Source of the DNA: Eggerthia catenaformis OT 569 = DSM 20559
Lineage (GTDB): Bacteria > Bacillota_I > Bacilli_A > Erysipelotrichales > Coprobacillaceae
DNA length: 64,000 bases
Direction of reading: 5' to 3'
NCBI RefSeq assembly: GCF_000340375.1
Contig: NZ_KB446646.1
Location: 417,150 to 481,149, forward strand
The stretch's first letter is position 1; the number at the start of each line of letters is the position of its first letter. The position numbers and the translations under genes were made by a program. This document shows positions 17,098 to 59,324 of the stretch, piece by piece. The notes below the pieces were generated by a model. The model saw only the letters and a program-made list of their open reading frames with translations. It made no database searches and was not told the origin of the DNA.

Positions 17098-17103
17098 AAA
17101 ATG

Positions 17104-17308
17104 GAAATCGATGAGAAAGAAAAAATCTTAGGATCTTTGCTTAGAGAAAAGACGGATGGTGAAAGTCTTCAAAGAGAAGAGATGGGCTGCTTTTGAGAGT
17201 GATGTAAACATCAACGTATTCCTTGCGTTAAAAGGATAAGAGGCAGTAGAATTACTGTGAACAAGGATGGTACCACGATTAGTCGTTCCTTATAGGAATG
17301 GCTTTTTT
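17104..17308 (+). ncRNA. T-box riboswitch, alanine specifier
   Basis: A leader that senses uncharged tRNA-Ala. The T-box sequence aacaaggatggtaccacg (17260-17277) includes TGGT, which pairs with the tRNA acceptor end and an A discriminator. Stem I has the distal loop ggatggtgaaa closed by agac/gtct. The 3' side of the specifier loop reads GCT (17186-17188), then a purine, CTTTT and GAG, so the codon is Ala. A terminator hairpin (17281-17302) with T6 follows; the competing antiterminator contains the T-box. Confidence 0.93.
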
Positions 17309-27123: not shown

Positions 27124-27147
27124 AAAAAAAGGGTAGTTTTACTACCC
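27124..27147 (-). terminator. Terminator of the TrpXYZ-like operon
   Basis: On the minus strand, a gggtag stem with loop and ctaccc, followed by T7. It overlaps the ATPase stop codon. Confidence 0.85.
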
Positions 27148-27936
27148 TAAAAGCATTCGATCATTTACAAATTCACTGCCGCTTGCTTCTTCAAACTTCT
27201 TTAATAAATCATTAACTTTTAATGATTTTTTTTCTTCACCGCTGACATCATAAATAATTTGGCCATCATACATCATAATCAAACGATTTCCAACATCAAT
27301 CGCATCCTGCATATTATGTGTAACCATCATCGTTGTTAGATGCATTTCATTAACGAGTTCATTAGTGAGGGTTAATACTTTAGCACTTGTAGCAGGATCA
27401 AGAGCCGCTGTATGTTCATCTAATAAAAGTATTTTAGGTTTTGTGAGTGTAGCCATAAGAAGTGTTAAAGCTTGTCTTTGACCACCTGATAATAATCCTA
27501 CTTTATTGGTCATACGATCTTCTAAGCCCAAGCCCAGCTTTTTAAGATGCTGATAAGAATCTTTAGTTTCCTGTTTTGTAATACTCCATTTAAGTCCTAA
27601 AGATTTTCCCCGTCTAAAAGCCATAGCCAGATTTTCCTGAATATTCATATCAGCAGCAGTCCCCATCATAGGATCCTGAAAGACATGACCAATGAACTGT
27701 GCTCTCTTATATTCAGGATATAATGAAATATCTAAATCATCCAGAATAATATGTCCACAGTCTATAGGATATAATCCGGCAACCATATTCATTAAAGTAC
27801 TTTTACCGGCACCATTACCTCCTATAATAGTAACAAAGTCTCCGTCATTCAATGTTAAAGTAATATTTTTTAAAGCTTTTTTCTCATTAATCGTTCCTGT
27901 ATTGAACGTTTTAGAAACATTTTTAATTTGAAGCAT
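27142..27936 (-). CDS. ABC transporter ATPase of a TrpXYZ-type uptake system
   Basis: The energy-coupling subunit, 264 residues: Walker A GGNGAGKST, Q-loop FQDPMMGT, signature LLSGGQRQALTLLMA, Walker B LLLDEHTAALDP and the THN switch. It matches the ATPases encoded beside PF04392 binding proteins. ATG 27936 is preferred because the minus-strand GAGGTGG is adjacent to the earlier ATG (27945) but 9 bases from this one. It overlaps the permease gene by 14 bases. The substrate, judged from the T-box, is likely aromatic, possibly phenylalanine. Confidence 0.9.
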   Translation of the reverse strand: MLQIKNVSKTFNTGTINEKKALKNITLTLNDGDFVTIIGGNGAGKSTLMNMVAGLYPIDCGHIILDDLDISLYPEYKRAQFIGHVFQDPMMGTAADMNIQENLAMAFRRGKSLGLKWSITKQETKDSYQHLKKLGLGLEDRMTNKVGLLSGGQRQALTLLMATLTKPKILLLDEHTAALDPATSAKVLTLTNELVNEMHLTTMMVTHNMQDAIDVGNRLIMMYDGQIIYDVSGEEKKSLKVNDLLKKFEEASGSEFVNDRMLLG

Positions 27937-28875: not shown

Positions 28876-29847
28876 TTAAATATATTTAACCTGTTTCTTT
28901 AAATCTTCAGGAATACTGATACCAAATCTTTCAGCCTGCTTTTTGTTAATGGATAATTCACAGTCTGATGCTTTTAAATATTTAATAGGCATTGTCTGAG
29001 GCTTTTCTTTACCTTCTAAGATGGAAACAGCCTGCTTGCCTGCTAAATGCCCTAAGGCATTATAATCAATACCATAAGTAGCTAAACCGCCATGAGTTAC
29101 CATATTTTTTTCACCGACAATAACCGGAATCTTACTGGCATTAGTAGACTGAATAACAGTTGGCATATTTGCTGCTAATAAATTATCAGTAGGAATATAG
29201 ACAGCATCCACTTTACCGGCAAATGAGTCAGTAACTGCCTGTACATCATTAGAATCAGAAACAGTCTTGCTCACTGTTGTAAAACCTAATGCTTTAGCCT
29301 CCTTGATTGCGATTTTCGCCTGAAATTCAGAATTTGATTCAGAACCGTTATATAAGATACCTACATTCTTTGCTTTAGGCATTAACTTCTTCAATAGTTC
29401 CATTTGTTCTTTAACAGGAGTTAAGTCACTAGCTCCGGTAACATTAGTATCAGGCTTACTATTAGACTTTACAAGCTTAGAAGTTGCCGGATCAGTTACA
29501 GCACTGACCACAATAGGAATATCTTTTGTTTTATTAGCAACAGCTTGAGCAGCAGGTGTCGCAATCGCATAAATTAAGTCACTTCTATCATTAACTAACT
29601 GAGAAGCAATCGTTTCACAGTTGCTTGTTTCACCGCTGGCATTTTTAACATTCTTATCATCAATCTTATAACCGGCTTTTTCAACCTCTTCTTTAAATCC
29701 TTTGTAAGAAGCATCTAAGGCATCATGCTGAACAAATTGAATAATACCTATTTTTACTTCACTTTTGTTTTTCTTCCCCGTATTTGAAGAAGAACAACCG
29801 CTTAATAATAACCCGCAGGCAAGAACTGCACCTAAGACTTTTTTCAT
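28876..29847 (-). CDS. ABC substrate-binding lipoprotein, TrpX family (PF04392)
   Basis: A 323-residue lipoprotein: the signal peptide ends in the lipobox LLSGC (Cys17), then a periplasmic-binding fold (KIGIIQFVQHDALDASYKGF; IATPAAQAVANKTKDIPIVV; AVTDPATSKLVKS; VGILYNGSESNS; TYGIDYNALGHLAGKQA). It is the first gene of the operon and is controlled by the T-box leader just upstream. The family is usually linked to tryptophan, but the leader reads a Phe codon, so the ligand may be phenylalanine. Confidence 0.88.
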   Translation of the reverse strand: MKKVLGAVLACGLLLSGCSSSNTGKKNKSEVKIGIIQFVQHDALDASYKGFKEEVEKAGYKIDDKNVKNASGETSNCETIASQLVNDRSDLIYAIATPAAQAVANKTKDIPIVVSAVTDPATSKLVKSNSKPDTNVTGASDLTPVKEQMELLKKLMPKAKNVGILYNGSESNSEFQAKIAIKEAKALGFTTVSKTVSDSNDVQAVTDSFAGKVDAVYIPTDNLLAANMPTVIQSTNASKIPVIVGEKNMVTHGGLATYGIDYNALGHLAGKQAVSILEGKEKPQTMPIKYLKASDCELSINKKQAERFGISIPEDLKKQVKYI

Positions 29848-29870: not shown

Positions 29871-30115
29871 AAAACAAAAAAGATCCGCCAAAAGAGGGCG
29901 AATCCACGCGTTACCACCTCTAGTTTACCATCTATTCACATAGATAGTCTCGCTAGGTTTACAACCTTATGATTTAACGATCATAACTCGGGATAACCTT
30001 TAAGCTAACCAACTCCGTGGTGAATTCAGAATAACTTACGTATCATTTACACCGCCCATGATATCTCTTGTGTCGCATCATTCTTACTATGTCACTTCAA
30101 TGTTTTTATGAATAT
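29871..30115 (-). ncRNA. T-box riboswitch, apparent phenylalanine specifier
   Basis: Minus strand. The T-box core agaggtggtaacgcg is at 29907-29921. A terminator stem (gattcgcc with ggcggatc; 29882-29904) and a T run follow. Stem I has loop-E halves AGTA and GAA flanking the agaat/attct helix and a distal loop gggcggtgtaa. The codon after GAA is TTC (plus coordinates 30022-30024), followed by A, CCACG and GAG. This is the same spacing as GCT-G-CTTTT-GAG in the alaS leader. The TGGT in the T-box fits an A discriminator (Phe), not G (Trp). Confidence 0.88.
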
Positions 30116-30121
30116 GATGAT

Positions 30122-30150
30122 ATCATAAAGAAATAATAGTAATTTGTCAA
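30122..30150 (-). promoter_or_regulatory. Promoter of the T-box / TrpXYZ-like transcript
   Basis: On the minus strand, TTGACA (30150-30145), 17 bases, TATGAT (30127-30122). Confidence 0.8.
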
Positions 30151-33615: not shown

Positions 33616-33766
33616 TCCTCCTTGCTTTCAAGAGAGTACCTGATAGAATCTGTTAGACAATCACTTATCTTTTTTACCTATCTTTTTAGACAGTACTATG
33701 CCTCCAGATCATCCGCCGAATATTTCGATAAATCTGGTCCTCGTCAACTCATTGAGTTCTGGCGCT
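33616..33766 (-). ncRNA. glmS ribozyme (glucosamine-6-phosphate-activated self-cleaving RNA)
   Basis: The minus-strand leader contains the conserved ribozyme segments in order: AGCGCCAGAACU at the cleavage site, GUUGACGAGGA, UUUAUCGAAAUAUUCGGCGG, then AAAGAUAGGUAAAAAAG and GUGAUUGUCUAACAGAUU, and CUCUUGAAAGCAAGGAGG, whose end is also the glmS ribosome site. Cleavage is expected between positions 33766 and 33765 (A|G). Glucosamine 6-phosphate acts as the cofactor, and cleavage leads to mRNA decay. Confidence 0.96.
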
Positions 33767-33772
33767 TAAAAA

Positions 33773-33778
33773 ATATTA
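33773..33778 (-). promoter_or_regulatory. Probable -10 of glmS
   Basis: TAATAT on the minus strand about 7 bases before the ribozyme cleavage site; no clear -35. The transcript would begin at or within a base or two of the cleavage point. Confidence 0.4.
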
Positions 33779-59000: not shown

Positions 59001-59324
59001 GATGTCTGCGAGAATCAATCGCTAGAAATAGAGGAAAGTCCGTGCTATCACTGACTGAGATGTCAGTAGTGTGCGTGCCAGACCTAATAAGTCTGGGCTT
59101 AGACGACAGTAGAAGCCTAAGTCGTAAGATAGGGTGTATACTTTAAAGTGCCACAGAGACTATATCTTTGCGAAAGCAAGGGGTGAAAAGAGGTAAACTC
59201 CGCGCGATAGAAACCCAAATTTCGGTAGGGGAGTCTGATAGAAGGAATTCAACTGACATCAGATAGTAAAACTAAGATAAATGATTGATTGAAAAACAGA
59301 ACACGGCTTATCAGAGCAGACTCT
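59001..59324 (+). ncRNA. rnpB: RNase P RNA
   Basis: The catalytic RNA of RNase P, which trims tRNA 5' ends. Conserved pieces are visible: GAGGAAAGTCCGTGCT (about 59031-59046), ACAGAGACTATA, GGGTGAAAAGAGGTAAACTC (59181-59200) and the 3' ACAGAACACGGCTTA (about 59297-59310). The P1 helix is closed by GTCTGC (59004-59009) and GCAGAC (59316-59321). The ends are approximate. It begins a few bases after gpsB and probably shares its transcript. Confidence 0.95.

Follow-up and report, generated by a model that had tools for sequence, protein, structure and literature searches.

A phenylalanine-codon T-box on a PF04392 importer operon with a tyrosine-type binding pocket in Eggerthia catenaformis

A T-box-controlled importer operon and its tryptophan paralogue

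The window (i.e. the whole stretch of 64,000 nucleotides of Eggerthia catenaformis DNA that was analysed) carries on its minus strand a three-gene operon for a binding lipoprotein, a permease and an ABC ATPase, preceded by a promoter and a T-box leader (Table 1). The leader matched Rfam family RF00230 over its full length (positions 1-219) with 102.8 bits (E 1.4e-21; gathering score 93), confirming the T-box placed on this strand by an initial annotation made from the sequence. The same annotation described a loop-E pair, AGTA/GAA, followed by TTC, a purine, five bases and GAG; all of these elements were found where it had put them, with A, CCACG and GAG following the TTC. The strong intrinsic terminator (folding z -3.3) shares sequence with the 3' arm of the antiterminator, so that by folding and pattern scan the two hairpins are mutually exclusive. 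The host tRNA-Phe has anticodon GAA and A73, matching both the specifier and the bulge of the window leader. As judged from its sequence, this leader is a transcription-attenuating T-box reading the Phe codon UUC, with read-through itself a prediction.

Table 1. Coordinates of the features discussed (window positions unless marked as genome positions)
Feature	Position	Strand	Basis or detail
alaS T-box	17102..17293	+	92.3 bits, just below Rfam cut-off 93; GCT specifier 17186-17188
Terminator-like hairpin, operon end	27130..27148	-	pattern scan
ABC ATPase, PF00005	27142..27945	-	Pfam match
Permease, PF02653	27923..28861	-	Pfam match
Binding lipoprotein, PF04392 (268 bits)	28876..29847	-	profile match; Glu246 codon 29112-29110, Tyr262 codon 29064-29062
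Intrinsic terminator, 9-bp stem and U-run	29881..29905	-	folding and pattern scan
T-box leader	29891..30109	-	Rfam RF00230
Antiterminator AGAGG ... CCTCT	29893..29921	-	folding and Rfam alignment
T-box bulge TGGT, partner of the tRNA NCCA end (A73 in tRNA-Phe)	29913..29916	-	sequence
Specifier TTC (Phe)	30022..30024	-	this frame yields the cognate codon in 11/11 own-genome leaders with an assigned amino acid
Loop-E 3' side GAA	30025..30027	-	own-genome leader alignment
Loop-E 5' side AGTA	30085..30088	-	sequence and Rfam alignment
Sigma-70-type promoter TTGACA-17-TATGAT	30122..30150	-	consensus bases 11/12
Second PF04392 operon (L077)	genome C2:445024-445983	-	own permease and ATPase; UGG T-box 81 bits, below Rfam cut-off

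The combination of PF04392, PF02653 and PF00005 genes is that of a TrpXYZ operon. The UGG specifier that also belongs to TrpXYZ is found on a different operon, whereas the window leader has TTC. Exactly one other PF04392 gene is present in the genome (locus L077), and the two binding proteins are 37-38% identical. The L077 leader reads TGG-A-CCTGT-GAG, and L077-type relatives in the family to which the window belongs have Ala246, with UGG in all readable leaders. The L077 operon is probably the tryptophan transporter of this genome. The existence of this separate operon with a UGG leader sustains the proposal that the window operon does not have that role. The accompanying premise, that PF04392 proteins with this leader type are generally tryptophan transporters, was too narrow, as structures have been solved of members with Tyr or Phe bound (PMC6816091).

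Specifier frame and T-box bulge

The specifier frame was examined with a ladder of own-genome leaders assigned to an amino acid by the gene they precede. Specifier regions were aligned and the triplet located nine bases before GAG was read, giving GTA for valS, TAC for tyrS, AAA for lysS, CTC for leuS, TTC for pheS, ATG for metG, GAC for hisS-aspS, ATC for ileS, CGC for argG, GCT for alaS and TGG for trpS. The cognate codon was obtained in all 11 leaders, as compared to 0/11 in frame -1 and 1/11 in frame +1, which rules out a reading of the window leader as ATT (Ile, frame -1) or TCA (Ser, frame +1). The alaS T-box of the window, cited in the initial annotation as an internal control, has the same spacing as the window leader (i.e. 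GCT-G-CTTTT-GAG). The pheS leader reads GAA-TTC-A-CCTTG-GAG and has the GAA-TTC-A-CC context in common with the window leader. Both the ladder and this common context uphold the assignment of UUC as a Phe specifier.

The T-box bulge did not provide a second line of evidence. TGGT had been taken to favour tRNA-Phe over tRNA-Trp, but this sequence was present in all own-genome T-boxes tabulated, including those of trpS and the Trp transporter, despite the G73 of the own-genome tRNA-Trp. According to TBDB, a U at the discriminator-pairing position of the bulge (i.e. a G:U wobble) occurs in 46% of Trp T-boxes (PMC7778990). TGGT is thus compatible with A73 of tRNA-Phe but is not discriminating in this genome; because Trp leaders also carry it, the bulge cannot exclude Trp here, whereas the specifier does.

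A whole-genome search of the 1.94 Mb genome detected 14 T-boxes, to which the L077 leader, missed by that search, was added; a fifteenth match of only 10 bits was left out of the count. The thrS leader (L011; genome C2:139640-139835, plus strand) was not placed on the ladder as its GAG is degenerate: it reads ACT-C-CCTGT-TAG, and the absence of the usual GAG makes its specifier less certain. A CGC (Arg) T-box (L006; genome C2:429673-429881, minus strand) precedes a polar amino acid ABC transporter, which is probably an arginine importer. A GTA (Val) T-box (L001; genome C4:62053-62255, minus strand) is followed by an ORF of 214 residues and then by valS.

The binding pocket and the leaders of related operons

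Structures of CD0873 (Tyr-bound), VC_1101 (Phe-bound) and SP1069 (Trp-bound) differ at two pocket positions, with Glu, Ala and Ala, respectively, at one and Tyr, Tyr and Gln at the other; the Glu of CD0873 hydrogen-bonds the tyrosine hydroxyl (PMC6816091). Glu246 and Tyr262 of the window protein align, in a gap-free stretch, with Glu263 and Tyr279 of CD0873, and Tyr262 also takes the position of SP1069 Gln284, a residue stated to aid Trp binding. CD0873 was the best PDB match of the window protein both by sequence and by fold, with 6hnj (E 1e-31) and 6hni as the top Foldseek matches of its AlphaFold model (pLDDT 89.7). A protein tree grouped the window protein with CD0873, itself on a long branch, and apart from the Trp-leader paralogues (support 100/98). 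The comparisons of sequence and predicted fold indicate that the window importer is descended from a tyrosine-type (i.e. Glu-pocket) lineage.

Known members of the fold differ from the window operon in one or more of these features. CD0873, a tyrosine-binding lipoprotein of C. difficile (PDB 6hni, 6hnj, 6hnk; PMC6816091), has the PF04392 fold, pocket Glu and Tyr and, on the first tree, clade in common with the window protein. However, PMC6816091 makes no mention of a T-box for CD0873 and it is not in the C. difficile T-box table (PMC11477304), whereas the window operon has a Phe T-box. TrpX of S. suis and S. pneumoniae (SP1069, PDB 3lft; PMC9382623) is, like the window protein, encoded with a permease and an ATPase under a T-box, which senses the tRNA of the imported amino acid (PMC9382623). 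TrpX combines a Trp specifier with an Ala/Gln pocket, as compared to UUC and Glu/Tyr in the window. VC_1101 of Vibrio cholerae (Phe-bound PDB 3lkv) has the same fold and a Tyr at 262 as in the window protein, but Ala in place of the Glu.

In a sister family, many genomes encode two binding proteins, mostly in tandem and each with its own T-box. All 17 proteins with Glu246 had a UAC leader, and all 12 with Cys, Val or Trp at that position had a UUC leader; these rows are related and do not amount to 29 independent cases. This sister set includes G009, an outlying genome of the window's own family, and the same-order genome G575 (UAC), and three of the 12 UUC leaders (L188, L237 and L224) were read by hand where the automatic rule failed. 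Tandem Phe- and Tyr-type proteins with matched UUC and UAC leaders were present at L191, L192, L210, L213, L219, L220, L221-L223 and L236. Four independent pocket changes were each matched by the specifier, although four pairs are too few for significance (sign test, p 0.125). Outside the window clade, the leader codon would thus normally track the pocket. The sister-family pattern is consistent with the view, proposed from crystal structures, that Glu at this position denotes tyrosine, and suggests that an uncharged residue (Cys, Val or Trp) denotes phenylalanine. In Collinsella and other Coriobacteria (L144, L151 and L154), a pair of Cys- and Glu-type PF04392 proteins is encoded at each locus, with no T-box detected by scan.

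As read from pocket and leader, the window clade is an exception to this pattern, in that a Tyr-type pocket is combined with a Phe-reading leader. With G009 set aside and G575 counted with the sister set, 26 leaders of this clade have TTC and eight have TAC, with no other codon, and Glu246 is present in all 34 proteins. Ligand contacts listed in the literature are identical under UUC and UAC leaders. By parsimony, the specifier changed seven times on the first protein tree, where the TAC label must change six times or more to fit the supported branches, and 11 times on a larger tree that includes the sister family. On the larger tree, specifiers differ within eight independent, supported pairs: four show a corresponding pocket change and four show none. 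In one genus, sister leaders are ~91% identical and differ by T/A at the middle specifier base. Leader replacement by recombination is not needed in this genus, as the leaders are this alike and vertically inherited. One genome of the set (G024, L052) has tandem Glu-type copies with separate T-boxes, the first reading UUC (1244-1460) and the second UAC (2682-2898). A Glu246 protein behind a GAA-TTC T-box was also found in two Clostridia MAGs (L143:3620-3875 and L155:3412-3658), while most other Glu-type relatives in named genomes have no T-box upstream.

No clean link was observed between specifier and presence of the Tyr-forming enzyme, since enzyme-bearing genomes have both codons. Genomes without a convincing PF02153 match and with a readable single leader also had either UAC (G030 and G034) or UUC (G008). 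Genes for prephenate dehydratase and for prephenate dehydrogenase are both present in the E. catenaformis genome, and the host therefore need not be auxotrophic for Phe or Tyr.

Substrate and signal of the window importer

The initial annotation suggested that the operon imports phenylalanine instead of tryptophan. The exclusion of tryptophan stood, but phenylalanine as sole substrate fits poorly with a Glu246 as in CD0873 and with the occurrence of Glu under Tyr leaders in relatives; these pockets and leaders point rather to Tyr, alone or together with Phe. We favour, at a probability of about 0.55, an importer for both tyrosine and phenylalanine that senses tRNA-Phe; read-through on Phe starvation, Tyr uptake, Phe binding and hence the dual substrate range are inferred. 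The T-box would monitor charging of tRNA-Phe, and a shortage of Phe would lead to read-through into the three genes of a PF04392/TrpXYZ-type, non-tryptophan ABC importer most likely to take up Tyr and Phe. The genome lacks a Cys/Val/Trp-type copy, its only other PF04392 gene being the UGG paralogue, and for this reason one protein of the Glu type may handle Tyr as well as Phe. If one importer serves Tyr and Phe, then either tRNA would be an acceptable signal. A single base change, UUC to UAC, would suffice to switch the sensed tRNA because tRNA-Phe and tRNA-Tyr both have A73, and repeated flips of this kind with a constant pocket are what the window clade would represent. Among 20 amino acids, only tyrosine significantly stabilised CD0873 (KD 94 uM; PMC6816091), and this result for a protein with the same Glu argues against Phe binding.

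The strong Tyr preference of CD0873 (PMC6816091), with its Glu/Tyr pocket equivalent to Glu246/Tyr262, and the 17/17 association of Glu with Tyr leaders in the sister family would fit a Tyr-specific importer governed by tRNA-Phe, such that the sensed amino acid differs from the imported one. With Tyr imported, more prephenate would be left for making Phe, a possibility given that both prephenate enzymes are encoded. Such a mismatch would, however, have to hold for the Glu/UUC majority of the clade (26/34) and for the two Clostridia MAGs, which is much to ask, and whether a genome has the Tyr-forming enzyme is no clean predictor of its specifier. We consider this reading rather doubtful, and give the same tentative standing to its extension to the whole clade, namely a tyrosine importer switched on by phenylalanine starvation, in which sensing and import became uncoupled and were re-coupled several times by single-base specifier changes. 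If that were true, a T-box codon would be no proof of transporter substrate. The original proposal of a phenylalanine importer, in which Glu246 would confer no Tyr preference within the window clade, appears unlikely: it accounts for the UUC specifier, the commonest in the clade, and accords with the usual identity of T-box codon and transported amino acid (PMC2494555), but UAC leaders precede almost identical proteins whose pocket is the same, and the Phe-leader proteins of the sister family have Cys, Val or Trp in place of Glu. It is very improbable that the operon imports tryptophan under an atypical leader, as the TrpXYZ-like gene order and Pfam families are set against a specifier other than UGG, a separate Trp-leader operon and a separate clade, and the pocket is Glu/Tyr rather than Ala/Gln (Trp-bound SP1069) or Ala/Tyr (UGG paralogues).

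T-box control of TrpXYZ is already known (PMC9382623), and a 2008 survey found T-box specifier and transporter substrate to agree in every verified case (PMC2494555). The papers searched, which did not extend to two older T-box surveys (PMC2271356 and PMC2650889), describe neither a T-box with a Phe or Tyr codon ahead of a PF04392 operon nor a match between specifier and pocket. The closest parallel is the Phe T-box of an NSS transporter in the B. cereus group, likewise an aromatic transporter, for which an origin from a Tyr T-box was proposed (PMC2494555); that case involves an unrelated transporter family and a single inferred change, in contrast to repeated flips on orthologues in the window clade. 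T-box specifiers are used to assign transporter substrates, and in the window clade orthologues of a single importer, constant in pocket, have either Phe or Tyr leaders. The sister-family and paralogue patterns lend genomic support to a pocket rule for PF04392 proteins (Glu for Tyr; Cys, Val or Trp for Phe; Ala with UGG for Trp within this order), which takes further an idea drawn from three crystal structures. The single-base specifier switches on near-identical leaders also form a natural series for testing tRNA sensing against substrate choice.

Two further structured RNAs were detected in the window, a glmS ribozyme before glmS (33631-33777, minus strand) and a class B RNase P RNA (59009-59312, plus strand), both of which are ordinary for the group.
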